A stretch of 64,000 nucleotides of DNA from Cherax quadricarinatus (taxonomy: Eukaryota; Arthropoda; Malacostraca; Decapoda; Parastacidae), in NCBI RefSeq assembly GCF_038502225.1, contig NC_091298.1:33039494-33103493 (forward strand), read 5' to 3'. The notes under the pieces were generated by a model. That model was given only the letters and a program-made list of their open reading frames with translations. It was not told where the DNA came from and did not search any database. The translations under genes were made by a program, and so were the position numbers. The number at the start of each line of letters is the position of its first letter. Position 1 is the stretch's first letter. Positions 20,400-53,420 of this stretch are shown here, one piece after another.

Positions 20400-20508
20400 C
20401 AAAACAACCACTCTGAAAGAATAGAGAAATTCCAAGCGCTTTCGTGGCTACTCACATTATCAAGGAACTATCCATAGTTCCGTATATATATATATATATA
20501 TATATATT
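20318..20508. repeat. (TA)n region with arm-specific insert
   Basis: TA tracts at about 20318-20395 and 20484-20507 flank an 88-bp insert (20396-20483) that carries a hammerhead-like motif on the minus strand. The left arm has a MITE and another segment at this place instead. Confidence 0.9.
20430..20467 (-). ncRNA. Hammerhead-like ribozyme motif, family D
   Basis: Minus strand: UUCC, box I UUGAUAA, extra U, helix II GUG-AGUAGC-CAC, GAAA, GCGCU, U, GGAA. Helix I pairs UUCC with GGAA. Box I has U3-A8. Helix III is the self-complementary AGCGCU rather than the ACGU of the other families, again with no loop. The expected cut is between 20434 and 20433. All paired elements differ in sequence from families A-C yet keep the pairing. 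Confidence 0.6.
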
Positions 20509-20625
20509 TGGTACGGAACTGATGCCTAGCAAAATTTTCCAAAAAAAAGATATCCAAATGTTACACAAGTGTCCTGTTCTTCAACTTGTCGGTTTTCGAA
20601 ACCAGTTATATACTGTAGTGTTGAT
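20508..20625 (+). repeat. Truncated hammerhead-type repeat tail (mirror of 10855-10965)
   Basis: Reads GAACTGATGCC, then the ACACAAGTGTC tail and CTTGTCGGTTTTCGAAACCA. Helix II is missing, so it is inactive. Confidence 0.5.
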
Positions 20626-21539
20626 GTTTTGAGGGATAATGAAGACGATACCCAGCAAGAGTTTAAGCTACATTGCAGAACTCATTGTTTTGGCTAAAGT
20701 TGATCAGTGATGATTCGAAGATCCTGCGTCTCTGACGAGCATTCGAGCATCTTTACAATTAATTAAATGGTTGTAGGAGATTCGGTGTAAAACGCAGGCG
20801 GTCTTCAAGTCTTCCCAACTGGCGGGTTCAGAAATGCCAGCTAGGCTTGTAGAGGTTTTGCCGCGCATATTTTGTTGCCGTCTTTGCAAGTGAAGGTTCG
20901 TGTCAGTGGTGACTCTTACTGATGATTTCTTAGACTGTGGTGGATGCATTGATAGTTACTTGGAAGATGGTGTTCGAGAGAATGTTGGAGACGTGTTTAC
21001 AATGGAATAGATAGTGAGGACAATTTACTTTCTTTCGGTGATATTACGTGTGGGTGCATTGAAGATGTTACGTGCACGGAGTCTGCATCATTGATGAAGT
21101 AACGAGGAAAGTGAGGCTTAGATAATACTTGTTCGATGAAAGTGAATTATTCAAGTAAGTCACCGCTGCAGATACCTAGGAAACGTAGCAAGATGCCTAT
21201 GATTACCCTTCATTTAGCTTTTCTATCGTGGTGTGAGTAAATGTGAAGATTTTATTGGTTGGTAGTTTTGTTGCAAATTTCAAAACAGATTATGGTCGTC
21301 AGTACGCAGAGAAACATCAAGGTAAGTTATCACTAATGCAGGTAGGAAATTCAAAGCCTGCTGTACCTGGCTGTTACAAAAGTCATCAGTCAAACAGCAG
21401 CCAGACAATCAAAGGCAAAACAAACACAGAGGTGTAGTTTTTTGTTTTTTCTTCATCCCCATATTCCTTCACCAAGATATGTACAGTATGTATCTACGGA
21501 GTTAAATCAGTAGTATAACAGTAATAAGATAAACAACAG

Positions 21540-22190
21540 GCTTACACCTTGATACAGTATGGACAACGAGGTTCAGTAGATTCGGCTCCATTCAGTTTAC
21601 CCAAGCAGTCTTCTGGTCAGGTGAGACCCACTACAGATGCCGCATATTTCCTCTGGCACCTGAAGTATCTCGAAGGTTCTGGGTTGTATATCCTAACCTG
21701 GTATTTTCCCCAACAACATGGATCCAGTTGATATGGGAAAGGTCCTCTGTGTTGAATCAAGACTTGCCGTCCTTCTCTCGGAGTCGTTCAACTTTCAAGA
21801 TATTTTTGTTACTATGAACTGTATCGAGAGACATGTCTAGTGGATAGCGCATTAGTACACCTTTTTGTTACCCGCTCTGTGGATTTTGGTTCTGTGAGAA
21901 CAAGTGGTGGTTCGAGTTCGTTCACCTTCTGCAGTACCTCAAAGAATTCTGTGTTTCGGGAGTAAGAAAAAACTCCCTTTTCAGATTTGGGGGCACCGAT
22001 ATCTTCAGGCCATAATTCTTCTTTAGATGACTTATTACAGAATACGGGGTGTCGTGGTGTCCTTTGCTTATCAACTTGAATTTGTTGAATGCAGATGTCC
22101 CAGCTTGCTCGATGTGAACCAAGGTAACATTGTGTCTCCTCTGGGACTTCTGGACTCCTGCTGCCTGCCAGCTTTCACCATCTAGCATAT
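21540..22190 (-). pseudogene. Decayed gag-like ORF1 (mirror copy)
   Basis: Right-arm copy of 9270-9930 with the same frameshifts and the same degraded zinc-knuckle segment (about 21555-21695). Differences include QAAGVQ for QTAGVQ and VHIEQ for AHIEQ. Confidence 0.5.
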
Positions 22191-22397
22191 CTCGGGTTGG
22201 TTTCGCTTACTTTGCTGTCGCAAGTGTCCAGGGAGTCCAGTGAGTGGTCTCGCAGTTTCTTCGCCAGAAATGCGCTTCACATTTCCAAATATGGGTCCTC
22301 GGTTGAGTCCTTGAAACATCTTCCATTCGAATGAATCCACGTGCTTCCTTGTTCCTGTCTCATGATTCTGTTCAGAAGTATTAGCAAAAATTCTCTT

Positions 22398-22665
22398 CAA
22401 ACAATAAACCCCGCCATCACATGGCTGCTACCACCACCACCACCACTACTACTAATACTACTACTACTACCATCATATGAACTACTATTACTACTACAAG
22501 TACTACCACTACTATATACAATGATTATATTATGCTTTTCACCTCACTCTATACTTATATATACCCTTTGTGTGTCTATATTATTTGCAACGGCTTGACA
22601 AAGCTCCTGGGGAGAGAAACGTTGCCACAATAAAATGTCGCATTAGATGCACTTGTGTTCTTTTA
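22398..22665 (+). repeat. Hammerhead-type repeat, family C (right arm)
   Basis: Plus-oriented copy: trinucleotide (CAC/TAC)n at 22431-22515, unique spacer, core at 22592-22626, AATAAAATGTCGC tail and a TGTTCTTTT end. Confidence 0.6.
22592..22626 (+). ncRNA. Hammerhead-like ribozyme motif, family C (right arm)
   Basis: Same layout as 8834-8868: GGC, UUGACAA, A, helix II, GAAA, CGU, U, GCC. The expected cut lies between 22623 and 22624. The core is unchanged between the two arms. Confidence 0.5.
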
Positions 22666-23194
22666 CATAATAGACTTTCGTTCGAAAACTTGATGTGAAT
22701 AAGTCATTTTAGATGCACATCATAAATCTAATTAAATTACTATATTATATACTACACGTCTTCATTTAGTTATTATGAACTGCATCAACTTCAGTTAATA
22801 AACAAATTAACAAAAATACATCAATTAATGTGCGAGAATGAGAACAATAATCAAATTCTCATTTTGTTCGGCATGAATATGAGTATACTAAGATTACAGC
22901 ACTTCTCATGCCCAAGTGTAACTAGTACCAAGTGCCCCAGACTTTCCGCTATCATTTCCATCAACAAAAAAATAATCTTTCACCCTTAGCTATTGCCGGA
23001 CATAGAAAATCGTCATAACCACCTAAATATAACCCCAACGTGCTACCCGTATATAATATTATGCGTCTCATTACCGCCAACCGGCAGTATCTCATCGTTG
23101 TTAATGCCAGACGAGCACAGTGGTCCCAGGGCAGACTTGTGTGAGGCTATGACACAGCCTCGGGATACCTCACTGAGAAGCGAGAAAACATAGA

Positions 23195-23855
23195 AGCCGC
23201 AAAATCCCTCACTGTATAGTGGAAGAAGAGGGAAGCTATAGAATCCCTCACTGTATAGTGGGAAAGGAGGGAAGCTATAGAATCCCTCACTGTATAGTGG
23301 GAGAGGAGGGAAGCTATAGAATCCCTCACTGTATAGTGGGAGAGGAGGGAAGCTATAGAATCCCTCACTGTATAGTGGGAGAGGAGGGAAGCTATAGAAT
23401 CCCTCACTGAATAGTGGGAGAGGAGGGAAGCTATAGAATCCCTCACTGTATAGTGGAAGAAGAGGGAAGCTATAGAATCCCTCACTGTATAGTGGGAAAG
23501 GAGGGAAGCTATAGAATCCCTCACTGTATAGTGGGAGAGGAGAGAAGCTATATAATCCCTCACTGTTTAGTGGGAGAGGAGGGAAGCTATAGAATCCCTC
23601 ACTGTATAGTGGGAGAGGAGGGAAGCTATATAATCCCTCACTGTATAGTGGGAAAGGAGGGAAGCTATAGAATCCCTCACTGTATAGTGGGAGAGGAGAG
23701 AAGCTATATAATCCCTCACTGTTTAGTGGGAGAGGAGGGAAGCTATAGAATCCCTCACTGTATAGTGGGAGAGGAGGGAAGCTATATAATCCCTCACTGT
23801 ATAGTAGGAGAGGAGGGAAGCTATATAATCCCTCACTGTATAGTAGGAGAGGAGG
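23195..23855. repeat. 39-bp minisatellite, about 17 copies (right arm)
   Basis: Reverse complement of the left-arm array with about five additional units. A block containing the GAGAGAAGCTATATAATCC variant appears twice, which suggests duplication of a multi-unit segment. Confidence 0.95.
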
Positions 23856-24369
23856 GAAGTCTCTGGAACACTGGCTGTTTAATGAGAAAAGAGGAAAGCC
23901 TCAGAATGTAATGCTCTGAGAGAGTCAGACGAGGAAAGGAGAAGACAACAGAGCTAAGAGGAGCATATATTATTAAGAAAGACGCTGTTTCATACAGGTA
24001 GATAATTGGGAGAAAATATTTAGCTCACGGAGAGAGAAGAGGCAGTGGGTGAGTGGAGAATGATGGTGGGGAGTAAATAGAGAGGGTGCTGAGGGGCGAG
24101 AAGTGAAAGATGATGAGGATGAAAGGCGAGAAGAAGAGGCAGTTGGGGTGGGGAAGCAAGTACAGAGGGGAGGCAAGAAGTGATGAGAGGCAGGTATAAA
24201 GGAGAAAGTAGTGAGAAATGTCAGGTGTAGAGGGACAGCAAAAAGTGAGGGGCAGCTGGTGAGGATAGGAAGTAGATGGACAAAGGAGTGGTGAAGGGAA
24301 GAGGAGAGGCAAATGTTTTGTTATGAAAGAGAACAAGTGACTATGTTAGAGGAGGCTGATAATGAGTGT

Positions 24370-25053
24370 ACTCTCCTAGTAGTGGTTGCAGGGGTCGATT
24401 CACAACTCCTGGCCCAGCCTCTTCACTGGTCGCTACTAGGTCACTCTTCCCGCTCCATGAGCTTTATCATACCTCTTCTTAAAGATTCGTATGGTTCCTG
24501 CCTCCCCTACATCACTTCCCAGACTATTCCACTTCCCAACAGCTCTGTGACTGAAGAACTACTACTTAACATCCCTGTGATTCATCTGAGTCTTCAACTT
24601 CCAACTGTGACCCTTTGTTGCTGTGTCCCATCTCTGTCCACCTTGTCGATTCCTCTCAGTATTTTGTATGTCGTTATCGTATCCCCCCTATCTCTCCTGT
24701 CTTCCTGTGTCGTCAGGTAGATTCCTTTTAACCTCTCCTCGTAGGACATGCGCCTTAGCTACGGGACCAGTCTAGTTGCAAACCTTTGCACTTACGTGCT
24801 TGGCTAGGTGTGGGGTTCGAAACTGGTGCTGCATATTCCAATATGGGCCTAACGTACACAGTGTACAGGGTCCTGAACGATTCCTTATTAAGATGTCGGA
24901 ATGCTGTTCTTTGTTTGCTAGGCGCCCGTAAGCTGCCACAGTTATTTGGTCGATATGCGCCTCAGGAGATGTGGCCAGTGTTATACTCACCCCAGTCCTT
25001 TTCCTTGAGTGAGGTTCCTAGTCTCGGGCCCCCTAGACTGTACTCCGTCTGTG
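24370..25053 (-). mobile_element. AC-flanked LINE C-terminal fragment (mirror of 6606-7290)
   Basis: Minus-strand copy with the same frameshifts, ending at (GT)n at 25054. The 3' UTR GTGGTTGCAGGGGTCGATTC is visible at 24383-24402. Confidence 0.75.
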
Positions 25054-25105
25054 GTGTGTGTGTGTGTGTATGTGTGTGTGTGTGTGTGTGTGCGTGCGTG
25101 CGTGT

Positions 25106-25147
<42 letters not shown>

Positions 25148-25177
25148 GCGTGTGCGTGTGTGTGTGTGCGCGCGTGC

Positions 25178-25230
<53 letters not shown>
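25054..25230. repeat. (GT)n microsatellite
   Basis: Mirror of 6442-6605, with a different length and a different arrangement of CG interruptions. Confidence 0.95.
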
Positions 25231-25231
<1 letters not shown>

Positions 25232-26410
25232 CTCTTGGCCCCACCTCTTCACTGGTCACTACTAGGTTCACTCTCCTGACAACCCTAAGGCTGAAGAAAT
25301 TCTCCCTAGCATCCCTATGACTTATTCGAGTTCTCAATTTCCAGTTGTGTCTCCTTGTTTATATAACCCATCTCTGAAACATACTGTCCCTGATCACTTT
25401 ATCATTTCCTTTCTTTATTTTGTGCGACGTTATCGTATCTTCCCTAGCCCTCCTGTCCTCTAGCGTCGTCAAGTTGAGTTCGCTTAATCTCTCCTCATTG
25501 AACATAACCCTTAGTTCCGGGTCTAGTTTTGTTGCAAATCTGTGCACTTTCTCTAATTTCTTGACATGCTTGTCAACTTATGGGTTCCACGCTGGAGCTG
25601 CATACTTCAGTATGAAGAACACGGTAAGGAGTGTGATGAGTAACTCCTTACATATATATCGAAAAGCTATTCTTAAGTTGCCCGACGCGCATTTCCTGCA
25701 GCTGTTATTTGGTTGATTTGCGCCCCACGGGATATGCTTAGTATGCTACCCAAGGATCCTTCTCCCTGAGTGAGGTACACAGCTTTTGATCTCCGAGCCT
25801 GCACGCCATCTGTGGGCTTCTTTGCCCTTCCCCAAACTTCATAATTTTGCATTTGGTGGCGTTTCAACTCCAGGAGACATTTGTTAGACCAGACATGCAG
25901 TCTGTCCAGATTCCTTTGTAGCATTTCCTGGTCCTCATTCGCTTGGATTCTCCTCATTAGTTTCACGTCGTCTGCAAACAAGGGATTCCTCTGATTTTTT
26001 CCCTTATATCATGCCGTTCACCAATACAAGACACACAAACGGTCCTGGGACTGATCCTTGCGGAACCCCATTGGACACCTGTACCCATTCCTACACCTCG
26101 TCACTGAACATCACTCATTGCTTCCTGTCAGGCATTCCTTGATCCATTGCAGTGCTTTTCCTGTTTTTCCTGCATTCTCCTCTAACTTTTGTACTAGTCT
26201 CTTGTGCGATACTGTGTGAAAAGACTACGTACACTCCAAGAAAGTGCCATCTACCCTACGCTCACTCTCTCCTCTTACTTTGTAGAAGAACTCCAATAGG
26301 TTTGTGACACAGGATTTTCCATCCCTGAAGCCGTGCTCGTTGTCACGTAGGAACCCATTCCTTTTTAGTGTTCCACTATACTTCTCCTGAGAATGTGTTT
26401 TTGTGGTTGC
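25231..26410 (-). mobile_element. AC-flanked LINE RT fragment (mirror of 5290-6441)
   Basis: Keeps FADDVKLMRRIQANEDQEML (about 25920-25980). Near 26334-26356 it retains about 23 bp absent from the left arm, so the left arm suffered that deletion after duplication. Confidence 0.75.
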
Positions 26411-27756
26411 AGGGGTTTAGTCACGGCTCCTAGCCGTGACTAAACCATGAGGTTTATCAAACATCATCTTAAAGCCATGTATGGATCCTGCCTCCACTAC
26501 ATCACTTCCCAGACTATTCCACTTCCTGACATCTCTATGACTGAAGAAATACTTTCTAATATCCCTGTAATTCATCTGAGTCTTCAACTTCCAACTGTTA
26601 TTTCTTGTTGTGTCCCATCTCTGAAACATCCTGTCTCTGTCCACCTTGTCGATTCCTCTCAGTTCTTCATATGTCGTTATCATATCTCCCCTATCTCTTC
26701 TGTCCTCCAGTGTCGTCAGGTTGATTTCCCTTAACCTCCCCTCGTAGGACATACCCCTTAGCTCCGGGGCTAGTCTTCTTGCAAACCTTTGTATTTTCTC
26801 TAGCTTCGTTACGTGCTTGGCTAGGTGTGGATTCCAAACTGGTGCTGCATACTGCAATATAGGCCTAACGTACATGATGTACTTTGTTCTGAACGATTTC
26901 TAATTAAGATGCAGGAAAGCTGTTCTTAGGTTTGCTAGGCGCCAGTATGCTGCAGCAGTTATTTGGTTGATGTGCACCTCAGGAGATGTGCCTGGTGTTA
27001 TATTCACCCCAATATCCTTTTCCTTGAGTGATGTTTGTAGTCTCTGGCCCCCTAGCCTGTACTCCGTCGGCGGTCTTTTTTGTCCTTCTCCAATCTTCAT
27101 GACTTTGCACTTGGTGGGGTTGAACTCAGGAGCCAGTTGCTGGACCAGGGCTGCAGCCTGTCAAGATCCCTTAGTAGTTCTGCCTGGTCCTCGTCCGATT
27201 GAATTCTTCTCATCAACTTCACATCTTCTGCGAACAGGGACACTTCTGAGTCTATTCCTTCTGTCATGTCGTTCACAAATACCAGAAACAGTACCGGTTA
27301 TAGAACTGACCCTGTGGAACCCCGCTCGTCACAGGCGCCCACTCTGACACCTCCCCACGTACCTTGACTCGCTGTTGTCTTCCTGACAGGTATTCCCTGA
27401 TCCATTGCTTTACCTTCCTGTTATCCCTGCCTGGTCCTCCAGTTTTTGCACTAATCTCTTGTGTGGAACTGTGACAAACGCCTTCTTACAGTCTAAGAAA
27501 ACGCAGTCAACCCACCCCTCTCTCTCTTTTCTTACTGCTGTCATCCTGTCATAAAATTCCATTAGGTTTGTGACACAGGATTTCCCGTCCCTAAAACTGT
27601 TCTGGCTGTTGTTGATAAGCTCATTTCTTTCTAGGTGCTCCACCACTCTTCTCCTGATATTTTTTCCATGACCGCATTCTGTTTATGTCAGTGACACTGG
27701 TCTGTAGTTTAATGCTTCATGTCTGTCTCGTTTTCGAAAAATTGTGACTACATTTG

Positions 27757-27758
<2 letters not shown>
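26411..27758 (-). mobile_element. AC-flanked LINE RT to 3' end (mirror of 3966-5289)
   Basis: The C-terminal ORF 26417-26875 reads AAPVWNPHLAKHVTKLEKI..., including about ten residues missing from the left copy, the ancestral state for the family. The RT block A (VDCVFLDCKKAF) is at about 27470-27510, and the same mutated catalytic FAEDVKL is near 27220. Confidence 0.8.
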
Positions 27759-27829
<71 letters not shown>

Positions 27830-27834
27830 TGTGT
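27759..27834. repeat. (GT)n microsatellite
   Basis: Mirror of 3894-3964, with one TTTG interruption near its right end. Confidence 0.95.
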
Positions 27835-27960
27835 ACTCACCTATTTGTTCTCACCAGCTTGTGGTTGCAGGGGTAGATTCATTGCTCCTTTCCTCGCCTG
27901 TTCACTGATCGCTACTAGGTCCTCTCTCTCCCTGCTCTATGAGCTTAAAACTATGTATGA
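27835..27960 (-). mobile_element. AC-flanked LINE 3' end, truncated at outer breakpoint
   Basis: Contains the UTR and last codons (minus) up to the SFKL region. Homology with the left arm stops at 27960, where unrelated DNA begins. Confidence 0.8.
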
Positions 27961-30650: not shown

Positions 30651-30705
30651 CAGAATGATTCATGATGAATTAGACACTTGTGCAACTCTTGGGTATCTTT
30701 ATTAA

Positions 30706-30740
30706 GGAGACGTTTCGCCACACAGTGGCTTCATCAGCCC
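30706..30740 (-). ncRNA. Hammerhead-like ribozyme motif, family A (minus copy)
   Basis: Minus strand: GGG, CUGAUGA, A, GCCAC-UGU-GUGGC, GAAA, CGU, C, UCC. Relative to the plus copy, helix I position 2.1 changed A to G, still pairing with U as a wobble, and the nucleotide before the cut is C instead of U, both allowed in hammerheads. Confidence 0.6.
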
Positions 30741-30965
30741 ATACACAGGAGAAACTTGAAGAACAGGAGGAGAATGAGGTAATCAGTCCCTCAACCTTGA
30801 GTCGATGTGGTCAGTCCATCAGTCTTGAATAGAATACGGCATATGAGCGGAGAAGCAGCCAATAAACCGTATTCTATTCAAGATTGATGGAATTACCATA
30901 TCGACTCAAGGTTGAGGTACCGATTACCTCATTCTCCTCCTGTTCTTCAAATTTCTCCTGTGTAT

Positions 30966-31000
30966 GGACTGATGAAGCCACTGTGTGGCGAAACGTTTCC
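30966..31000 (+). ncRNA. Hammerhead-like ribozyme motif, family A (plus copy)
   Basis: GGA, CUGAUGA, one extra A, helix II GCCAC-UGU-GUGGC, GAAA, CGU, U, UCC. Helix I GGA/UCC can extend beyond an internal loop by GUAU (30962-30965) with AUAC (31010-31013), where type-I hammerheads often have loop contacts. Expected cut 30997/30998. Helix III is just ACGU, so an intermolecular or tandem partner would be needed. Confidence 0.65.
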
Positions 31001-31084
31001 TTAATAAAGATACGCAAGAGTTGCACATGTGTCTAATTCATCAACGTGTCGGTTCTGTGAACCATTCAACTACAGAATGATTCA

Positions 31085-31700
31085 GTATAGTTTAATGTCT
31101 CAAGTTGGCTATCTGATGAACAAAATGTTAATATAGCACTTGAGGTAGTCATTGCTGCCACTCAAATTGCAGTTCCCAAATTGGCTATGGATATGAATGG
31201 AGTTTCATCCCTAAATAAATAAATATTTAACAATTTTAGTATTTAAACATTTAAATAATTGAGCCATTAATTATTAATTTTCTCATCCTTTGATACATTA
31301 GATTACTAGAACCCAATATAAGGTTAATGAAGAAATAGGAAATTGAAGACGAGTCATAATCAAAGGTTACTTTTTATAGACAGACTAGGCTTATACTAAG
31401 TTGATGAGGTATTGAGGCAAAGAGGTCGATTAAAAAATACTTCACTGAATAAATATTCAAAACACCTTGTTACGTAAGTCTCATTATTTTGCTCATTTAA
31501 TCATTATTAAGTCTCCAATAAACACTATGTATAGTAAGGTGCCATACAGTGTTATATAAGACAAGTTTCTGTCTCGACAGTGTCGGTAGATATATTAAGT
31601 CTTGAATCATCTGCCGTCGAGAAGACGAGCGACATGGTTATGTTAAGAAAGACTAGTGAAAATGAAATGGATTTAATCCTCAAAAGCAAAAGAGAAGAGC
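31085..31700. other. AT-rich DNA, no gene
   Basis: No domain, repeat unit or RNA structure that I can support. Confidence 0.5.
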
Positions 31701-31739
31701 CATTTGAAGGGAAAAAGGTTTAGGTACTTGAAAGACAGA

Positions 31740-35030: not shown

Positions 35031-35079
35031 TCACCCTACCTCTGAGGGAGACGGGAGAAGGAGAGAGTATTAAAAAATG

Positions 35080-35411: not shown

Positions 35412-36175
35412 ATGTGGCCATTTTACACTGTATAGCATGATCGTGCATCATCTTGTATCCATGTTACATTGTATAGCATGATCATGCATCATCTTGTAGC
35501 CATGTTACACTGTATAGCATGATCGTGCATCATCTTGTGGCCATGTTACACTGTATAGCATGATCGTGCATCATCTTGTAGCCATGTTACATTATATAGC
35601 ATGAACATGCATCATCTTGTGACCATGTTACATTGTATAGCATGATCGTGCATCATCTTGTAGCCATTTTACATTGTATAGCATGATCGTGCATCATCTT
35701 GTAGCCATTTTACATTGTATAGCATGATCGTGCATCATCTTGTAGCCATGTTACATTGTATAGCATGATCGTGCATCATCTTGTAGCCATGTGCATCATC
35801 TTGTAGCCATACATTGTATAGCATGATCGTGCATCATCTTGTAGCCATGTTACATTGTATAGCATGATTGTGCATCATCTTGTAGCCATGTTACATTGTA
35901 TAGCATGATCGTGCATCATCTTGTAGCCATGGTACATTGTATAGCATGATCGTGCATCATCTTGTAGCCATGTTACATTGTATAGCATGATCGTGCATCA
36001 TCTTGTAGCCATGTTACATTGTATAGCATGATTGTGCATCATCTTGTAGCCATGTTACATTGTATAGCATGATCGTGCATCATTTTGTAGCCATGTTACA
36101 TTGTATAGCATGATCGTGCATCATCTTGTGGCCATGTTACATTGTATAGCATGATCATGCATCATCTTGTAGCCA
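35412..36175. repeat. 41-bp satellite, about 18 copies
   Basis: The unit is GCCATGTTACATTGTATAGC followed by ATGATCGTGCATCATCTTGTA. Period 41 is confirmed by CATGATC starts at 35436 and 35477. Units vary at a few positions (ATCGTGC, ATCATGC, ATTGTGC), and one truncated unit lies near 35790. Each unit contains the partial palindrome GATCGTGCATCATC. No spacers, so it is a satellite and not a CRISPR array. Confidence 0.95.
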
Positions 36176-36445
36176 TATATGCCAGATGTATGTCAGAGTG
36201 ATGCATTTCAGAGTGATATATGTCAGAGTGATGTATGTCTGAGTGATGTCAGAGTGATGTATGTCAGAGTGATGTATGTCAGTGATGTATGTCAAAATGA
36301 TGTATGTCAGAATGATGCATGTCAGAGTGATGTATGTCAGAGTGATGTATGTCAGACTAATGTATTTTAGAGTGATGTATCTCAGAGTGATATATGTCAG
36401 AGTGATGTATCTCAGAGTGATGTATCCCTGAGTGATATCCCTGAA
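36176..36445. repeat. 15-bp tandem repeat, degenerate
   Basis: GTGATGTATGTCAGA repeated with variation, directly downstream of the 41-bp satellite. Stop-free frames in both directions come from the multiple-of-three period. Confidence 0.9.
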
Positions 36446-36479
36446 TGATGTATTCCTAAGTGACATATTCCTAAGTGGT

Positions 36480-39626: not shown

Positions 39627-39673
39627 AAGGTTGATGGGATACAAGGAGAATAGAAGCATCAGGGAAGAGAGAG

Positions 39674-41796: not shown

Positions 41797-42041
41797 GGTG
41801 CTGTTGGAGTGTGAGCAAAGTAACATTTATGAAGGGATTCAGGGAAACCGGCAGACCGGACTTGAGTCCTGGAGATGGGAAGTACAGTGCCTGCACTCTG
41901 AAGGAGGGGTGTTAATGTTGCAGTTTAAAAACTGTAGTGTAAAGCACCCTTCTGGCAAGACAGTGATGGAGTGAATGATGGTGAAAGTTTTTCTTTTTCG
42001 GGCCACCCTGCCTTGGTGGGAATCGGCCAGTGTGATAATAA

Positions 42042-42043
<2 letters not shown>

Positions 42044-42131
<88 letters not shown>
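42044..42131. repeat. (TA)n at LINE 3' end
   Basis: Follows the AATAAAAAA end of the RTE-like LINE directly, so it is probably its target or its tail. Confidence 0.9.
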
Positions 42132-42134
<3 letters not shown>

Positions 42135-42149
42135 TTTTATTTATAAGAA

Positions 42150-43620: not shown

Positions 43621-43639
43621 CGTGAACAAAGTTAAGAGT

Positions 43640-43830
43640 GGCATTCTTCTTATGCATTGGAAAAACAAACACAAATACAGTACAATGCGATCTTATATTG
43701 GCAACGTTACGCCCACACAGTGGGCTTTATCAAATCACAAACAGATCTACCTGGGTGAATAGGTCCGCCAGTACGCAAGGCACATAACATCTCTAACTCA
43801 CTCAGAGAAGAGATACATAGTCCTCCCCAC
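43640..43830 (-). repeat. Hammerhead-type repeat, family G (minus)
   Basis: Minus strand: GATTTGATAAAGCCCACTGT, GTGGGC, GTAACGTTGCC (core 43698-43738) and a tail with GATCGCATTGTACTG. Box I UUGAUAA and helix II GCCCAC-UGU-GUGGGC are perfect, but GAAA is GUAA and helix I (GUGAU/GCCA) has lost pairing relative to the copy at 59205-59243. It lies directly beside a Penelope endonuclease remnant. Confidence 0.55.
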
Positions 43831-43857
43831 TAGCTCCGTATTTCCAACATTTTTCCA

Positions 43858-44043
43858 GTGCCTCAATCCAAGTGTCTACCTCCACATCTACCACCATCAA
43901 GGACGTCTCAAGGTTCAATCCTCTGCAAAGGTATACATAATCACTTGCAATTACTGCAATCAGTTATACGTGGGCGAAACATCCAGAGACCATCAAAAAC
44001 GTATTTCAGAACACCAGTACGCAGGCAAATCGAACGCCTGCAC
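43858..44043 (+). pseudogene. Penelope-like element GIY-YIG endonuclease fragment
   Basis: In the frame through 43931 the translation reads KVYIITCNYCNQLYVGETSR, then KRISEHQYAGKSNACT. This matches the GIY-YIG endonuclease of Penelope-like retroelements: the two Y-bearing strands (VYIITC and LYVGET), the C-x2-C insertion and the R...EH motif. No stop from 43858 to 44043. It is cut at 44043, where minus-strand LINE RT begins. No Penelope RT remains. Confidence 0.7.
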
Positions 44044-44640
44044 CAGGCCTAGGACTGACCCCTGTGGAACCCCGCTCGTTACAGGAGCCCACTTTGGCAC
44101 CTTGTCACGTCCCACGACTCGATGATGTGTTCCTGACAGGTATTCCCTGATCCATTGCCGTGCCTTCCCTGTTATACATGCCTGGTCTTCCAGCTTATGC
44201 ACTAATATCTTGTGTGGAACTGTGCCAAGAGCCTTCTTACAGTCCATGAAAACGCAATCTACCCACCCCTCTCTCTCTCTCTCTTGTCTTACTGCTGTCA
44301 CCCTGTCATAGAAGTCCAAAAGGTTTGTGACACAGGATTTCCCGTCCCTAAACCGTACTGGTTGTTAAGCTCATTCCTTTCTAGGTGCTCCACCACTCTT
44401 TTCCTGATAATCTTCTCCATGACTTTGTATACTATACATCTTACTATACGGCAATGGATCAGGGAATACCTGTCAGGAACACACAATCGAGCCATGGGAC
44501 GTGACGAGGTGCCATAGTGGGCTCCTGTAAGGAGTGGGGTTCCACAGGGGTCAGTCCTAGGCCTGGTGCAGGCGTTCCTTAAATCGTCCGATCTGCCTGC
44601 GTACTGGTGTTCTGAAATACGTTTTTGATGGCTCTTAGTG
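43975..44640. repeat. Inverted duplication joining Penelope and LINE sequence
   Basis: About 185-bp arms at 43975-44160 and 44450-44640. Both arms carry the same artificial junction, Penelope endonuclease (NACT) fused at ACCAGGCCTAGGACTGACC to LINE RT (SGVPQGSVLGL). The centre is 290 bp of minus-strand LINE RT. The right copy retains 13 more base pairs of Penelope sequence (RSDDLRNACT-type) than the left. Confidence 0.85.
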
Positions 44641-46602: not shown

Positions 46603-46869
46603 ATGAGTGGAACAGTCTACCTAGTTGGGTTATTGAGGCTAAAACCTTGGGTAATTTCAAATATAGGTTGGATAAATACATGAGTGAAAGGGGCTGGATT
46701 TGAGTGGGACTTACATGTGAGAGTGGATAGAGTTATCAGAGCTTATTTCTTGGGTGACATTGAAAATCGTGTTGGGCAAATGTTTTGTTAGTGGGATGGA
46801 GTGTAAAGGACCTGCCAAGTATGGGCCAACAGGCCTGCTGCAGTGTTCCTCCTTTATGTTCTTATGTTC
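46603..46869 (+). mobile_element. CR1 3' end fragment
   Basis: Opens in the GTGGAACAGTCTACCTAG codons (EWNSLPS-like motif) and shares the 3' UTR of the CR1 at 54021-54174, including GGGCCAACAGGCCTGCTGCA, ending in TTATGTTC-type octamer repeats. Inserted in the ORF1 part of the minus-strand LINE and flanked on both sides by TTATG words. Confidence 0.8.
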
Positions 46870-47090
46870 TCCCCCTCTCACTGCTATCCCTCCTCCTAAC
46901 AGCTCTCCCCCTACATTCCTTAGCCTTGCTTGCTGGACTGATAGGGCCTTAGCATAAGTCCTGTCTCCTTCTTTCTACTGGGTTCCTCGTTAGATAGGGG
47001 TGTACCTGCTTCAGATGACATGTGTTATCTGGGCAACAGTCTTGTAACTTGCTTCAACATATTTACCTCATATTTTAGGACCTATAACAA

Positions 47091-47279
47091 AATAAATAAC
47101 AAAAAGGCACAATACCGTGACTGGAACGATACACAAATAACCCGCACATAAAAGACAGAAGCTTACGACGACGTTTCGGTCCGACTTGGACCATTGACAA
47201 AGTCACACTTTGTCAATGGTCCAAGTCGGACCGAAACGTCGTCGTAAGCTTCTGTCTTTTATGTGCGGGTTATTTGTGT
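47091..47279. mobile_element. Hammerhead foldback element, family E, perfect arms, 11-bp TSD
   Basis: Arms 47130-47203 and 47207-47280 are exact reverse complements over 74 bp with a 3-nt loop (CAC). The flanking duplication ACCTATAACAA is at 47080-47090 and 47280-47290. The left side carries the 39-bp extra tail with AATACCGTGACTGG. Each arm reads UUGUCAA, U, GGUCC-AAGUC-GGACC, GAAA, CGUCGUCG on its own strand. Box I has U3 and A8 but A6 is U, and helix I is not obvious, so activity is doubtful. Perfect arms point to very recent origin or gene conversion. Confidence 0.9.
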
Positions 47280-47290
47280 ACCTATAACAA

Positions 47291-47495
47291 CACTGCACTA
47301 GCCAAGGACTCGAACCCATGCTGCTTTGGCTTGCCTTATGGTAGGCGAAACCACATGACGCCCTTATCCACTGAACCATACGATCCTTAAGAGTAGGGCA
47401 TCCAGCAGAACTGGATGTTGTACTCCCTACCCAAGGACACACGATGATATGGATGACTCTAGGCTAGTTTCATTCTGGTCCCTGTTTGGTGTACT
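47291..47495 (-). mobile_element. tRNA-derived SINE, minus copy of inverted pair
   Basis: On the minus strand, an A-box-like TGGTTCAGTGG and B-box GGTTCGAGTCC (47306-47316) are spaced as in a tRNA-like promoter. The same body (GGTAGGGAGTACAACATCCAG) occurs in the plus copy. The pol III promoter is intact by sequence. No tRNA cloverleaf. Confidence 0.75.
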
Positions 47496-47552
47496 AGTTC
47501 AACAACCAGTATTTTATATTATTGTGACCACGAACGAGTGGTATTGATCAAT

Positions 47553-47775
47553 AGTACACCAAACAGAGACTAGAATGAAATTAGCCTAGAGTTATCCGCA
47601 CCATCGTGTGTCCATGGGTAGGGAGTACAACATCCAGTTCTGCTGGATGCCTACTCTTAAGGATCATATGGTTCAGTGGATAAGGGCGTCATGTGTTTTC
47701 GCCCACCATGAGGCAGGCCAAAACAGCATGGGTTCGAGTCCTTGGCTAGTGCAGTGTTGTTATTAATCAATACCA
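47553..47775 (+). mobile_element. tRNA-derived SINE, plus copy of inverted pair
   Basis: A box TGGTTCAGTGG (47669-47679) and B box GGTTCGAGTCC (47731-47741). The body upstream of the A box mirrors the minus copy at 47291-47495. Head-to-head layout with about 57 bp between the two. Confidence 0.75.
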
Positions 47776-48048
47776 CTCGTTCATGGTCACAATAATTCTA
47801 GGACCTGTATCCTGGCCTCTATGGCTTTAGCCTGTGACTCCCATTTCTTCTTCTTTTCCTCCATCATCTCCATTTATGCAGAAAGCTCACCTAGTTTGCT
47901 CTTCCCCTCTTGTTTCATTCTTTTACATTGCTCTTCCCTTCATTCTTCCTTATCAGAACCATCTTCTAATCCCCTGAGCCTTCGACTTCCCCTCTGAGCC
48001 CCCAGTATTTTTATGGGTAAGGTTTTTGTAATGTGTGTGAGTGTGCTG

Positions 48049-48114
48049 TTTGTGCGTGTGTGTGTGCGTGTGTGTGTGTGTGCGTGCGTGTGTGTGTGTG
48101 TGCGTGTGTTTGTT

Positions 48115-48176
<62 letters not shown>
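48049..48176. repeat. (GT)n microsatellite next to LINE 5' end
   Basis: GT tract interrupted by GTGC and TTTG steps, just upstream (minus sense) of the ORF1 start of the AC-flanked LINE. Confidence 0.95.
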
Positions 48177-48177
<1 letters not shown>

Positions 48178-48312
48178 CAGCTAGAGAGTGGTAGAGAGGG
48201 AGAGGTGGAGAGAAAGAGGCATAGTTGAAAAGAGAGAGGGAGAGGTGGAGAGAAAGAGGCATAGTTGAAGAGAGAGAGGTGGAGTGTGCGTGTGTGTGTG
48301 TGTGCGTGTGTT

Positions 48313-48403
<91 letters not shown>

Positions 48404-48590
48404 CAGCTAGAGAGTGGTAGAGAGGGAGAGGTGGAGAGAAAGAGGCATAGTTGAAAAGAGAGAGGGAGAGGTGGAGAGAAAGAGGCATAGTTGAAGAGAG
48501 AGAGGTGGAGAGAAAGAGAGGGAGAAGTGGAGAGACAGAGGAATGAAGGAGGTGGGGGGGGGAGTTGTAAGGGGAAGAGAGATGTGTGTG
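48177..48590. repeat. 225-bp tandem duplication of GA-rich plus (GT)n unit
   Basis: ACAGCTAGAGAGTGGTAGAG starts at 48177 and again at 48402. Each is preceded by (GT)n and followed by GAGAAAGAGGCATAGTTGAA repeats. The copies are nearly identical over about 113 bp. 48516-48590 continues as GA-rich DNA. Confidence 0.9.
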
Positions 48591-48602
48591 TGTGTATGTG
48601 TG

Positions 48603-48932
48603 TGCTCACCTATTTTACTCACCTATTTGTGGTTGTAGGGGTCGATTCATAGCTCGTGGCCCGGCCTCTTCGCTGATCGCTGCTGGATCCTCTCTTTCCC
48701 TACTCCATGAGCTTTATCAAACCTCATTTTAAAACTGTGTGTGAGTCCTGCCTCCACTACGCCACTTTCCAGACTATTCCACTTCCTGACAACTCTGTGA
48801 TTGAAGAAATACTTCCTAACATCCCACTGACTCATCTGAGTCATCAACTTCCAATTGTGACCCCTTGTTTCTGTTTCCCATTTCTGGAACATCCTGTCCC
48901 TGTTCAACTTGTCAATTCCTCTCATTATTGTA
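48603..48932 (-). mobile_element. AC-flanked LINE 3' end (host of CR1), first half
   Basis: Minus strand: RDRMFQKW, WKLMTQMSQWDVRKYFF, RKWNSLESGVVEAGLTHSFK and the 3' UTR with TAGGTGAGTA words, bordered by (GT)n-rich DNA at 48585-48600. Reading stops at 48932 in the middle of the LRGIDKLNRD block and resumes at 54175. Confidence 0.85.
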
Positions 48933-48934
48933 CA

Positions 48935-49133
48935 GTGGTGACGTGTACTTAGCTCACAGTGGTGACGTGTACTTAGCTCAGTGGTGACGTGTACTTAGCT
49001 TGAGTGGTGACGTGTACTTAGCTCAGTGGTGACGTGTACTTAGCTCAGTGGTGACGTGTACTTAGCTCAGTGGTGACGTGTACTTAGCTCAGTGGTGACG
49101 TGTACTTAGCAAGTGGTGACGTGTACTTAGCTC
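48935..49133. repeat. 22-bp tandem repeat in CR1 5' UTR, 9 copies
   Basis: GTGGTGACGTGTACTTAGCT starts at 48935, 48959, 48981, 49004, 49026, 49048, 49070, 49092 and 49113. Each contains TGACGT, the CRE/ATF-type half palindrome. It lies 40 bp upstream of the ORF1 start, so it may act as an internal promoter array (inference). Confidence 0.9.
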
Positions 49134-49175
49134 TGTGAAGACCTGTTTGTGTGCTCTCTGTGAATCTGAACCAGG

Positions 49176-50141
49176 ATGCCCTCTCTTGAGCAGCTTTACC
49201 AGCAGCTGAGAGAAGAACTCAGAGTTGCTAAACTGGAGATACGGCGATTGACGGAGGAGAACAAGAGGATTCGTAGTAATCCTCCTGTTGTGAGTCCCCA
49301 GGTTAAGAGGGGAGCTTGGTCAGTGGCCGGGCAACATGGAACCAAGCTGAAGATTAAGAGAACGGTTGGAGAGGCAGAAACAACGAGAAACCAGAAGACT
49401 GCCGTGGAAACTTCCAACTCATTCTCGGTGCTACCTGACGAATGTGAGTGTTCTACTGGGAATGCCACAACGAGCACCAAGGAAGCATTGGCAGACGTGA
49501 GTGAGACATCCCTAGAAACCCCAACGAAGACCATCGAGAACGTCATGACGAATTCTACAAGTGGTGTAATGCTACCTGGCGAATGTGAGTCGACTACTCG
49601 GAGCATCACTACGGACGACGCCAAGGAAGGTAAAAACATTGTTGTTGTTGGGGATAGCCAGATTAGGTACATGGATAGGGCATTCTGTTTGAAGGATAGG
49701 AGTAGGAGGCAGAGAGTGTGTTTTCCTGGGGCTGGGATGAAGGATATTGTTAGCCGTCTGGATGACATCATGAGAGGTAATGGGAGCAATCCTATTATCT
49801 GTCTCAGTGCTGGAGGCAACGATGTTGGCAGACGTAGGAGTGAGGACCTGATTAGCAGGTACAGGTCAGCAATAGAGATAATTAGGAAGAAGGGTGGGAA
49901 ACCTGTCATATGTGGCATTTTGCCAAGGAGAGGAGTTGGAAATGAATGGTTGTCCAGGGCAATTGGTGTCAATTGCTGGCTGGACAAATACTGTAAGGAA
50001 AATGCGGTAACATTCATTGACAACTGGGACCTCTTCTATGGCAGAAATGACATGTATGCCAGGGATGGGGTTCACTTGTCTAGGTGTGGGGTGGGAGCAC
50101 TGGCCAACGCAGTGGAGGGAGCTGTTAGGTCTTTAAACTAG
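49176..50141 (+). CDS. CR1 ORF1 protein: coiled coil plus SGNH esterase-like domain
   Basis: 321 residues, no stop. Residues about 4-35 form a leucine-rich heptad region (LYQQLREELRVAKLEIRRL). Residues about 40-150 are a polar linker. From about 153 comes an SGNH-hydrolase-like domain: GDSQIRY with the serine at about 161, LSAGGNDVG (block III, N), and a C-terminal RDGVHLS with D and H at about 297 and 300. CR1-clade ORF1 proteins with an esterase domain are established; the coiled coil is thought to mediate oligomerisation on RNA. The ATG at 49176 directly follows the 5' repeat and gives the full coiled coil. All catalytic residues appear present. Confidence 0.85.
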   Translation: MPSLEQLYQQLREELRVAKLEIRRLTEENKRIRSNPPVVSPQVKRGAWSVAGQHGTKLKIKRTVGEAETTRNQKTAVETSNSFSVLPDECECSTGNATTSTKEALADVSETSLETPTKTIENVMTNSTSGVMLPGECESTTRSITTDDAKEGKNIVVVGDSQIRYMDRAFCLKDRSRRQRVCFPGAGMKDIVSRLDDIMRGNGSNPIICLSAGGNDVGRRRSEDLISRYRSAIEIIRKKGGKPVICGILPRRGVGNEWLSRAIGVNCWLDKYCKENAVTFIDNWDLFYGRNDMYARDGVHLSRCGVGALANAVEGAVRSLN

Positions 50142-50155
50142 GAATAGTTAGTGGT

Positions 50156-52543
50156 ATGGGTTTTGGCGGGAAAACTGTGAAGTCGCAGGGTAGTAACATG
50201 AGTACTAGGAGAACTAGTAATAGGCAAAATGAGGAGGATATTGGAAAGCCAGTGGCACTAATTGACAATGACAGTAATAGGTTTAGTGGAATAACAGAAA
50301 GGAGCAGGAAGGGTAAAGAGATAGGAGGGTCATTAAATATTTATTACACAAATAGTCGCAGTGCTAGGAATAAGATGGACGAGTTGAGACTAGTTGCTAG
50401 TGCAGGTAACATAGATGTATTTGCCATTACTGAGACGTGGTTTAATTCAAAAAGTCGGGACATGCCTGCAGAATGTCACATTCAGGGTTTTAAATTGTTC
50501 CAAGTAGATAGAAGTATCGGGAAGGGGGGTGGGGTGGCATTGTATGTCCGAGATCGCTTGAACTGTTGCATAAAAACGGGTATTAAGTCTGAAGTAACAC
50601 ATACAGAGTCTGTTTGGATAGAATTTTCAGAGGGGCATGAAAAATTAATTTTAGGTGTGATATACCGTCCCCCAAATTTAGATAGGGACCAGGGGAGACT
50701 ACTATGGGAGGAAATTGTTAGGGCCACAAGGCACGATAATGTAGTAATTCTAGGAGACTTTAACTTTAGTCATATTGATTGGAATTTCTTGACTGGGAAT
50801 TTAGAATCATACGATTTCTTAGAAGTAGTTCAGGATTGTTTTTTGAAGCAGTTTGTGACAGAACCTACAAGGGGTAATAACCTGCTTGACTTAGTTCTGG
50901 CAAACAATGAATCCCTTGTTAATAATTTAGAAGTCTCAGAGGAACTGGGTGCTAGCGACCACAAATCAATTACATGTAGAATTGAATGGAGGTATGATAG
51001 TAGGGATAACTCAGTAACAGTCCCAGATTTTCGCTTAGCAGATTACGATGGGCTTAGAGAACACTTATCATCTGTTGACTGGGGTAACGAAGAGAGCTAT
51101 CAATATGACAGTTTTCTGAACACAATACATGCTGCTCAAAGAACGTTTATCCCTTATAAGGAAATTAGATCAAATAGAAATGACCCAAAATGGATGAAAA
51201 ATAGGCTGAAATATCTACTAGGACATAAGAAAGGAATTTATAGGCGTATCAAAAGAGGCGAGGGTCATCTTATAAATCAGTATATTGACATTAAGAGGGA
51301 CATTAAAAAGGGGATAAGAAAAGCTAAAAGGGACTATGAAATTAAAGTTGCTAGGAATTCTAAAACTAACCCAAAAAGTTTTTTCCAGGTCTATAGAACA
51401 AAAGTCAGAGATAAGATAGGTCCCCTTAAAAATAACTATGGGCATCTTACTGACAAAGAGAATGAAATGTGCTCGATTTTAAATAATTATTTTCTCTCGG
51501 TTTTTACACAGGAAGACACTAATAATATTCCGGTAATTAATTTTTATAGTGGATCAGAAGAAGATAAATTATGTAACATCACAGTCACTAGTGAAATGGT
51601 TGTGAAGCAGATAGACAGACTGAAGCAAAATAAGTCACCGGGTCCTGATGAGGTTTTTTCAAGGGTTCTAAAGGAATGCAAAATGGAAGTCTGTGAACCA
51701 TTAACTAATATTTTTAATTTATCTCTTCAAACAGGTGCAGTGTCTGATATGTGGAAGATGGCTAATGTAATTCCTATTTTTAAAACAGGGGACAAGTCGT
51801 TACCGTCAAATTACCGCCCAATAAGCCTGACCTCAATTGTAGGCAAATTACTAGAGTCAATTATAGCTGAGATTATAAGAAGCCATCTCGATAAGCATAG
51901 CTTGATTAATGATACTCAGCATGGATTCACAAGAGGCCGGTCTTGTCTAACTAATTTATTAACTTTCTTCAGTAAAGCTTTTGAGGCTGTTGACCACGAT
52001 AAAGAATTTGATATTATTTACTTAGATTTTAGTAAGGCATTTGATAGAGTTCCGCACCAAAGACTGTTGAAGAAAGTAGCAGCTCATGGCATTGGGGGAA
52101 GGGTGCTCTCGTGGATCGAATCATGGCTCACAGACAGGAAGCAAAGAGTGTCCATAAATGGGGTTAAATCCGAGTGGGGATCAGTAACAAGTGGCGTTCC
52201 ACAGGGATCAGTCTTGGGCCCGTTGTTGTTTATAATATATATCAATGATCTTGATGAAGGAATTACTAGTGATATGAGCAAATTCGCCGATGACACGAAG
52301 ATAGGTAGGATAATTGATTCAAACGTAGATGTTATGGAACTTCAGGAGGATTTAGACAAACTCTACTCTTGGTCAGAAAAGTGGCAGATGCAGTTCAATG
52401 TAGATAAATGCAAGGTTCTGAAGCTCGGGAGTGTCCATAACCCTAGCACTTATAAGTTAAATAATGTAGAACTTAACCATACAGATTGCGAAAAGGACTT
52501 GGGGGTTATGGTAAGCAGCAACCTTAAACCAAGACAGCAATGA
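50156..52543 (+). CDS. CR1 ORF2: endonuclease and reverse transcriptase, truncated by foldback insertion
   Basis: 795 codons starting 14 nt after ORF1. Endonuclease: NIYYTNSRSARNKMDEL (about residue 60), ITETWF (catalytic E), GKGGGVALYV, VIYRPPN, ILGDFNFSHIDW (catalytic D/N), LLDLVLA and GASDHKSI (catalytic D/H). RT: NKSPGPDEV, NYRPISLTSI, DTQHGFTRGRSCLTNL, IIYLDFSKAFDRV (block A), SGVPQGSVLGPLLFIIYIND and KFADDTKIG (catalytic D-D). The frame ends at TGA (52541-52543), created where the foldback joins the CAATG target. The same frame resumes at 53465. Every expected catalytic residue is present, so the copy was probably competent until the insertion. Confidence 0.9.
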   Translation: MGFGGKTVKSQGSNMSTRRTSNRQNEEDIGKPVALIDNDSNRFSGITERSRKGKEIGGSLNIYYTNSRSARNKMDELRLVASAGNIDVFAITETWFNSKSRDMPAECHIQGFKLFQVDRSIGKGGGVALYVRDRLNCCIKTGIKSEVTHTESVWIEFSEGHEKLILGVIYRPPNLDRDQGRLLWEEIVRATRHDNVVILGDFNFSHIDWNFLTGNLESYDFLEVVQDCFLKQFVTEPTRGNNLLDLVLANNESLVNNLEVSEELGASDHKSITCRIEWRYDSRDNSVTVPDFRLADYDGLREHLSSVDWGNEESYQYDSFLNTIHAAQRTFIPYKEIRSNRNDPKWMKNRLKYLLGHKKGIYRRIKRGEGHLINQYIDIKRDIKKGIRKAKRDYEIKVARNSKTNPKSFFQVYRTKVRDKIGPLKNNYGHLTDKENEMCSILNNYFLSVFTQEDTNNIPVINFYSGSEEDKLCNITVTSEMVVKQIDRLKQNKSPGPDEVFSRVLKECKMEVCEPLTNIFNLSLQTGAVSDMWKMANVIPIFKTGDKSLPSNYRPISLTSIVGKLLESIIAEIIRSHLDKHSLINDTQHGFTRGRSCLTNLLTFFSKAFEAVDHDKEFDIIYLDFSKAFDRVPHQRLLKKVAAHGIGGRVLSWIESWLTDRKQRVSINGVKSEWGSVTSGVPQGSVLGPLLFIIYINDLDEGITSDMSKFADDTKIGRIIDSNVDVMELQEDLDKLYSWSEKWQMQFNVDKCKVLKLGSVHNPSTYKLNNVELNHTDCEKDLGVMVSSNLKPRQQ

Positions 52544-52612
52544 ACATCAAAATGGTATACAATACCGACAGGTTGTTAGGTAAGACACATATGCAACAGT
52601 TAGACAACTTTA

Positions 52613-52654
52613 TTCCGAAATGTTTCGCCTACACAGTAGGCTTCTTCAGTCGAA
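52613..52654 (-). ncRNA. Hammerhead-like ribozyme motif, family B (minus copy)
   Basis: Minus strand: UUCGA, CUGAAGA, A, GCCUAC-UGU-GUAGGC, GAAA, CAU, U, UCGGA. The helix I pair UUCGA/UCGGA is intact. Helix III ACGU has mutated to ACAU in this arm, which would weaken dimer pairing. Confidence 0.55.
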
Positions 52655-53378
52655 TACAGAAAGTAGGCAGGAACAGTAGAGATGTGAAGACGATGTAATC
52701 AGTCCATCACCCTTAAAGTCGTAGAATTTGAGGTTGTCAGTCCCTCGGCCTGGAGAAGTTCAGTTCCATAGTCAGGAACTATCTGAAGATCAAGCGACAG
52801 TGCGGAGACTTAAATACTGTCGGAAGGAGAGGTGCAGGGTAGTAGTAGTAGTAGTAGTAGTAGTAATAGTAGTAGTGAGAGGCAACTGAGAGGTCATGTC
52901 CCTCTCAGATCCAACCCTTCTCACTTGAAAAGCTTGTTCAAGGTGTTTTCTGTACCAAGATGCCACGTGTTGCAGTGTCTGACAAGATGAACATCAAAAT
53001 GGTATACAATACCGTCGGTATTGTATACCATTTTGATGTTCATCTTGTCAGACACTGCAACACGTGGCATCTTGGTACAGAAAACACCTTGAACAAGCTT
53101 TTCAAGTGAGAAGGGTTGGATCTGAGAGGGACATGACCTCTCAGTTGCCTCTCACTACTACTATTACTACTACTACTACTACTACTACTACTACCCTGCA
53201 CCTCTCCTTCCGACAGTATTTAAGTCTCCGCACTGTCGCTTGATCTTCAGATAGTTCCTGACTATGGAACTGAACTTCTCCAGGCCGAGGGACTGACAAC
53301 CTCAAATTCTACGACTTTAAGGGTGATGGACTGATTACATCGTCTTCACATCTCTACTGTTCCTGCCTACTTTCTGTA

Positions 53379-53420
53379 TTCGACTGAAGAAGCCTACTGT
53401 GTAGGCGAAACGTTTCGGAA
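53379..53420 (+). ncRNA. Hammerhead-like ribozyme motif, family B (plus copy)
   Basis: UUCGA, CUGAAGA, A, GCCUAC-UGU-GUAGGC, GAAA, CGU, U, UCGGA. Helix I has five pairs (one G-U). Position 7 of box I is A, where variation is tolerated. Helix II is six perfect pairs. Helix III is self-complementary ACGU. Expected cut 53414/53415. Confidence 0.65.

Follow-up and report, generated by a model that had tools for sequence, protein, structure and literature searches.

Probable minimal type-I hammerhead motifs with an extra core A in inverted pseudo-long terminal repeats of Penelope-like retroelements of Cherax quadricarinatus

Minimal hammerhead ribozymes of Penelope-like retroelements have reportedly been described by Cervera and De la Pena (2014) and by Lunse, Weinberg and Breaker (2017); they are said to be of type I, to have almost no helix III, to be located in pseudo-long terminal repeats (pLTRs) and, supposedly, to act as dimers. 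The motifs considered here resemble them in all four respects, but appear to differ in that an additional A ahead of helix II is nearly fixed and in that a large class has a U3-A8 pair. They come from 64,000 nt of the genome of the crayfish Cherax quadricarinatus (contig NC_091298.1, positions 33,039,494 to 33,103,493; hereafter the window, in whose numbering coordinates are given). That hammerheads occur in Penelope elements is already on record (PMC7229834, PMC6155905; these and the other PMC-numbered papers are cited for the part of their text available to us). The Anolis Poseidon hammerhead, in which the C3-G8 pair has been tested, likewise belongs to a Penelope-like element with reverse transcriptase (RT) and GIY-YIG domains and has hammerhead stems I and II; it overlaps the beginning of the element's reading frame (PMC11167929), whereas here the motifs of three loci lie 145-290 nt past the end of a frame. 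An extra A between A9 and G10.1, as in our motifs, is present in the plus-strand hammerhead of chrysanthemum chlorotic mottle viroid, where it moderately slows trans cleavage and its replacement by U speeds cleavage 3-4 fold (PMC3705267); unlike the viroid, our host is a Penelope element, and 98.8% of strict matches retain the A. Replacement of C3-G8 by U3-A8 is known from several natural hammerheads that are active in vitro (PMC3088659), compared with 53,769 strict copies (by subtraction) here. The Penelope elements of Adineta vaga share with ours inverted pLTRs, target duplications, head-to-head palindromes and an optional 31-bp tail on one inverted pLTR; their duplications are 8-10 bp long and absent in some copies (PMC3846280), as opposed to 10-14 bp here, and the word hammerhead does not appear in the main text of that paper. 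From the sequence pattern, its covariation and copy number, the linked RT/GIY-YIG fragments, and the duplications and tail geometry seen in about half of the pairs, we conclude that the window motifs A, B, C and G are probably minimal type-I hammerheads in the pLTRs of endonuclease-bearing Penelope-like retroelements, and that they probably cleave as dimers.

The window was scanned with a covariance model trained on 32 cores, which gave eight places at E ≤ 2e-4: both arms of the inverted pairs A and B, motif C and its mirror copy, a G-kind motif at 43.7 kb and the decayed motif G (Table 1). Four of these (both arms of A, the right arm of B, and C) were in the model's own training set and the other four were not, although the mirror copy of C, not itself counted as a training member, is identical to the C training sequence. 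In the right arm of A, helix I (GGA/UCC) is followed by CUGAUGA, the extra A, helix II and GAAACGU, with predicted cleavage after U17. The right arm of B has helix I UUCGA/UCGGA, CUGAAGA and the extra A, and its left arm carries a single change in helix III (GAAACAU). Motif C (helix I GGC/GCC) has UUGACAA, hence U3-A8, and the extra A, and has lost the closing pair of helix II. The motif at 43.7 kb consists of UUGAUAA, the extra A, GCCC...GGGC and a core GUAA. Helix II of the decayed motif G reads as canonical, lacking the extra nucleotide that its genomic sisters (TTGAAAA AGCCCACTGTGTGGGC) have. The features of a type-I hammerhead, that is, a YUGANRA box, helix II, GAAA, an N-U-H triplet and a helix I closing both strands, are present in A, B, C and related kinds. 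The original prediction, which had been made by reading the window, had placed A, B, C and G with this layout where the model finds them; its fifth motif, D, falls outside the model, and it had not listed the left arms of A and B, the mirror copy of C or the motif at 43.7 kb. A hairpin at 59447 is read, from blastn, as the decayed partner arm of G rather than as a new kind.

These motifs had been taken for five covarying families. In blastn comparisons, A matched B over 102 nt (75%, E 2.5e-13), whereas the matches of G were to the 43.7-kb copy (83% over 54 nt) and to B (31 nt, E about 0.003). C matched A weakly over 43 nt (74%, E 0.001-0.003), and the links of C and G are short and weak. Common to these families, in addition, are the extra A, the sequence GAAACGUY, an AATAAA further downstream and a tail. 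Among 66 motif copies from the window and loci L035-L054, AATAAA lies 3-6 nt past H17 in 61, a tail near GTTGCACATGTGTC follows it in most (by eye), and TCGGT...ACC, the short hairpin opening the next unit, is reached in 29. Because of these matches and the common downstream layout, A, B, C and G look, in sequence, like divergent relatives of one superfamily, so that the covariation described below lies between lineages of one element group. Five independent origins were therefore dropped, with D left outside the superfamily.

Covariation in helix I, which had been claimed from a handful of motifs, was tested by permutation. The examined loci contained 222 pattern matches (repeats from overlapping loci included), which reduced to 59 distinct cores over the motif plus 6 nt per side, with no selection on helix I. 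The first three helix I pairs were standard in 149 of 177 cells; 1,000 permutations of the 3' strand left 91 standard cells on average and 108 at most, which bears out the claim. With one core per helix-II type, 94 of 120 cells were standard (mean 59.8 and maximum 75 in 2,000 permutations), and over five helix I positions 70% of the cells pair in register versus 37-44% when shifted. The covariation score of 32 representatives was 0.579, against 0.202 after shuffling, a comparison biased by their having been chosen for at least 3 helix I pairs, with other distinct cores left out. The helix I kinds include GGA/UCC, AGGA/UCCU, UGUA/UACA (GGATGG kind), UGGC/GCCA (C kind) and UGAC/GUCA (G kind), with UCGA/UCGG and UUGA/UCA as variants of B.

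The whole assembly (3.95 Gb, 7,334 contigs) was then searched with the strict pattern YTGANRA-A-GC...GC-GAAACGTY, in which H17 is U or C by construction, and with the reversed pattern as control. The strict pattern was found 172,705 times (86,055 + 86,650), or about once per 23 kb, and the reversed control once. Leaving out the extra nucleotide gave 333 matches (control, 1) and a non-A base at that position 1,736 (control, 5), so that the extra A is present in 172,705 of 174,774 such matches (98.8%), which bears out the additional nucleotide predicted ahead of helix II. Positions 3 and 8 hold C-G in 113,500 of the strict matches and U-A in 53,769 (by subtraction); mismatches amount to 5,436 (C-A, 3,251; U-G, 2,185), where independence of the two positions would predict about 76,027. 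The pair is thus Watson-Crick in 167,269 of the 172,705 (96.9%), and its predicted covariation holds genome-wide. Motifs A, B and the CTCGTG kind fall in the C3-G8 class, and the C, G and GGATGG kinds in the U3-A8 class. Among the 59 distinct cores the tally was 25 C-G, 21 U-A, 7 C-A and 6 U-G, in which mismatches are over-represented since loci L055-L074 had been picked mostly from lists of mismatches and rare helix II; the genome counts are unaffected by this choice. With the extra A and the U3-A8 class, these cores depart from the standard core, which has C3 and G8 and no insertion between A9 and 10.1. We take this to mark a hammerhead variant, because both deviations have natural published precedents.

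Given those precedents (PMC3088659 and PMC3705267, as far as their available text goes), the description of U3-A8 and the extra nucleotide as unusual overstated their novelty. A literature text search, with most subscription papers outside its scope, did not find four literal motif strings or a hammerhead-ribozyme paper naming crayfish, and the terms crustacean and retrotransposon led to PMC7229834. Near-fixation of the extra A across an element superfamily together with two 3-8 classes was likewise not found in the literature searched, and at this scale the combination may be new. More than 170,000 natural copies amount to an extensive natural mutation record for this core, in which both helix I and the 3-8 pair covary, and make it possible to test directly why an insertion with a mild slowing effect on the viroid hammerhead persists here.

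The motifs A and B lie in two insertions, each composed of head-to-head inverted pLTRs between direct repeats (Table 1). The arms of element A end 46 and 75 nt past the predicted cleavage sites, and those of element B 76 and 43 nt past them. Element B interrupts the frame of a non-LTR retrotransposon with RT and endonuclease domains (50129-52543), which continues in frame 53424-54020. Head-to-head pairs within 600 bp account for 54 of the first 100 matches listed for contig C1, and the 40 close neighbours among them comprise 27 head-to-head, 9 direct and 4 tail-to-tail arrangements. Inverted pairs in the sequence examined numbered 26 and, as one (L008) is the same place as another (L044), 25 are distinct; 13 of the 25 have a 10-14 bp direct repeat with arms ending 41-47 and 71-79 nt past the predicted cleavage site. 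The layout of Penelope elements, with direct and inverted pLTRs, a tail on one of them and a target duplication, is accordingly seen in 13 of 25 pairs, and inversion in 54 of the 100 listed matches. The other 12 pairs include L042:698, not counted among the 13, with a 16-bp repeat at 34 and 71 nt; the rest have short or differently placed repeats, and at least one of them (L038:5717) is a palindrome artefact and no true pair. Randomly mismatched pairs, used as a control in which the geometry was not required, gave repeats of at least 11 in 9 of 198. The regular arm ends and duplications provide a clear read-out of the Penelope insertion mode.

A link to Penelope-like elements, which had been suggested, was borne out by this pLTR layout and by RT/GIY-YIG fragments 145-290 nt upstream of motifs in three loci. 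In locus L037, the reading-frame fragment P0002, which matches GIY-YIG with 24.7 bits (cut-off 22.6), ends 287 nt upstream of a C-kind motif on the same strand. The frame P0001 in L038 ends 145 nt upstream of a CTCGTG-kind motif, and in L039 a frame end matching that of P0001 (97% over 29 aa) lies about 190 nt upstream of another motif of that kind. P0001 was called Penelope from its 59% identity to P0002 over 106 aa and by eye. The closest named relative of P0002 is an uncharacterised C. quadricarinatus protein (94% identical), and a Penaeus vannamei protein shares 39% identity over 59% of the length of P0002. In the Cherax protein P0003, the C-terminal part of RT (17.9 bits, below the cut-off of 29.6, with GMGSP...YVDD present) is followed by GIY-YIG (24.6 bits), the order found in Penelope-like elements. 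Only fragments of Penelope genes were seen in the genome, with no intact element. By eye, the sequence upstream of motif C (about 22405-22425) resembles the frame end of L037. At L038:4826-4912, a G-kind inverted pair with a 14-bp direct repeat (CTTCTCTGGGTGTG) adjoins another Penelope frame fragment.

The mechanism that we infer comprises RNA cleavage, dimer action and two-strand copying. In a transcript of two tandem units, two hammerheads would pair through the self-complementary ACGU, giving each ribozyme a helix III of two base pairs, and each would cut after H17 (U or C), so releasing a unit. Their cores hold a single extra A, nearly fixed, between A9 and the opening pair of helix II, with C-G or U-A at 3-8 according to lineage. 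The enzyme of the element would nick the two target strands about 12 bp apart and copy RNA from each nick, one copy starting beyond the next unit's small hairpin and its counterpart some 31 nt before that point; many insertions would then consist of head-to-head inverted pLTRs with a tail on one arm. Two-strand copying is proposed because of the asymmetry of the arms and because the Anolis protein is reported to cut and extend both strands (PMC11167929). The hammerhead of the Anolis element has been termed protein-assisted, and its reverse transcription starts inside a stem loop (PMC11167929). We offer only as a tentative and somewhat doubtful idea that the extra A marks a separate, obligately dimeric, perhaps protein-assisted class of hammerheads, with a core tolerating C-G or U-A at 3-8, which would be fixed across decapod Penelope elements, exceed 170,000 copies in one genome and perhaps drive inverted-arm insertion.

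Several observations weigh against active hammerheads in Penelope pLTRs. Twelve of the 25 inverted pairs lack the duplication geometry, and the 41-47 and 71-79 nt spacing was read off the same data rather than set beforehand. P0001 has no Pfam match at E ≤ 1. The 172,705 copies have been amplified from few sources, so that the counts are not independent events, and the 3-8 pair may have undergone no more than one switch or a few. The first pairs of helix II are nearly invariant (a third pair of the R-Y type was found in 24 genome places only), and since the lower helix II hardly varies it contributes little covariation. Helices I and II of the hammerhead are present in the single-copy folds of B and C but in those of A and G no hammerhead is formed, and the dimer appeared in none of four two-copy folds (A, B, C and G). 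In the two-copy folds of A and B, it is the self-complementary GAAACGUUUC that pairs with itself, G12-A14 being part of a duplex that would be inactive. Insertion of the Anolis Penelope element in vitro was unaffected by blocking the hammerhead, and RNA reads lacked cut ends, according to the available part of PMC11167929; because insertion was independent of hammerhead activity there, the claim that cleavage is needed is weakened.

The same Anolis insertion and the same GAAACGUUUC duplex favour an alternative in which the motif persists as a structure of the RNA or DNA, serving enzyme binding, dimer contact, the start of reverse transcription or the formation of 3' ends near AATAAA, and has ceased to work as a ribozyme. 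Such a role would also suit the 98.8% retention of the extra A and the AATAAA 3-6 nt past the predicted cut in 61 of 66 copies. However, H17 stays U or C (as the pattern required), and both the core and the 3-8 pair have been preserved alongside covariation in helix I, none of which a plain protein-binding hairpin would need, and hammerheads with U3-A8 (PMC3088659) or with the extra A (PMC3705267) are active elsewhere, as reported in the text available; we therefore consider this alternative unlikely. A second one, in which the units are retrozyme-like, with excised monomers that circularise and spread as small circular RNAs, draws on the lack of a wholly contained reading frame of at least 150 aa in element B and on two evenly spaced direct tandem triples of hammerhead units on contig C1, one at 4100373/4100751/4101129 (region 4100373-4101157, 378-nt spacing) and one at 66719694/66720114/66720534 (region 66719694-66720564, 420-nt spacing). 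It is harder to reconcile with the predominance of head-to-head over direct neighbours (27 and 9 of 40, among the first 100 listed matches) and with the 13 of 25 pairs that have the tail and duplications of Penelope elements, and we hold it to be distinctly improbable. Chance resemblance in dispersed repeats has practically no probability, being refuted for A, B, C and G by 172,705 matches against 1 for the reversed pattern and by family-level covariation; D may be a chance match.

A hand-made descriptor of the full layout matched four places in the window (both arms of A, the right arm of B, and D), and 6,005 first-order Markov resamplings of the window yielded 60 hits altogether, about 0.01 per resampled window, with no resampling giving more than 1. 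Motif D was not among the 29 window matches of the covariance model at E ≤ 10, for which reason it was dropped as a member of the superfamily; by eye it lacks the AATAAA of the other motifs, and the 358,269 bases examined (overlaps counted) contain a single copy of it. It may represent a separate repeat family or chance. An Rfam scan of the window gave no match at the gathering cut-offs and 28 matches at E ≤ 10, none of them to a hammerhead family, so that no curated type-I hammerhead family is represented there. As the Rfam models miss the window motifs, hammerheads may be undercounted in animal genomes. A pattern scan of viral contigs gave four stretches, which were set aside as their flanks, by eye, lacked the hammerhead layout.

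Table 1. Hammerhead motifs, insertions and Penelope gene fragments in the window
Feature	Positions	Strand	Evidence or remarks
Motif A, right arm	30964..31002	+	covariance model, 56.9 bits; in training set
Motif A, left arm (inverted partner)	30704..30742	-	52.1 bits; in training set
Motif B, right arm	53379..53419	+	52.1 bits; in training set
Motif B, left arm (inverted partner)	52614..52654	-	44.3 bits; outside training set
Motif C	22590..22628	+	42.8 bits; in training set
Motif C, mirror copy within large inverted duplication	8832..8870	-	42.8 bits
G-kind motif, absent from the original prediction	43698..43738	-	31.8 bits; outside training set
Motif G, decayed; U3-A8, helix I UGAC/GUCA	59204..59244	-	29.7 bits; outside training set
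Remnant of opposite arm of G element	59447..59465	+	blastn 75.8% over 66 nt to 43.7-kb copy; 13 bits, E 1.5
Decayed B-like copy, C at extra position	2268..2308	+	blastn; 16.8 bits, E 0.19
Decayed G-like copy	11927..11966	+ (mirror 20066-20105 -)	blastn; 11 bits, E 4.1
Motif D; extra U, longer helix III (AGCGCU)	20420..20475	-	fits hammerhead descriptor; absent from covariance-model matches
Element A, head-to-head inverted pLTR insertion	30663..31072	.	12-bp direct repeat CAGAATGATTCA at 30651-30662 / 31073-31084
Tail of element A, on one arm only: start of next unit, hairpin TCGGTTCTGTGAACC and following bases	31049..31072	+	
Element B, head-to-head inverted pLTR insertion	52543..53457	.	13-bp direct repeat CAAGACAGCAATG at 52530-52542 / 53458-53470
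Broken Penelope RT/endonuclease gene fragment	10143..10733	+ (mirror 20728-21317 -)	tblastn of P0001 and P0002, best E 9e-15
GIY-YIG endonuclease fragment of Penelope element	43922..44059	+	tblastn of P0002, 44% over 48 aa, E 7e-7

The window has several further features. The centre of the long hairpin of element A (30768-30938) matches the MIR807 precursor model with 70.5 bits, below the cut-off of 113, and is probably just an inverted repeat. A palindrome of about 24 kb spans 3897-27826, with arms (3897-14188 and 17860-27826) that are complementary at 96-100% in long blocks and also contain AT microsatellites and inter-arm differences. Both arms carry 39-bp tandem repeats (7800-8261 and 23203-23859) with one frame open, repeating LPLYSEGFYSFPP. 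A 41-bp tandem repeat array (35413-36176) is followed by a 15-bp array (36185-36436), and the reading frame at 60967-61851 contains a DDE_Tnp_1_7 (PiggyBac-like) transposase domain.

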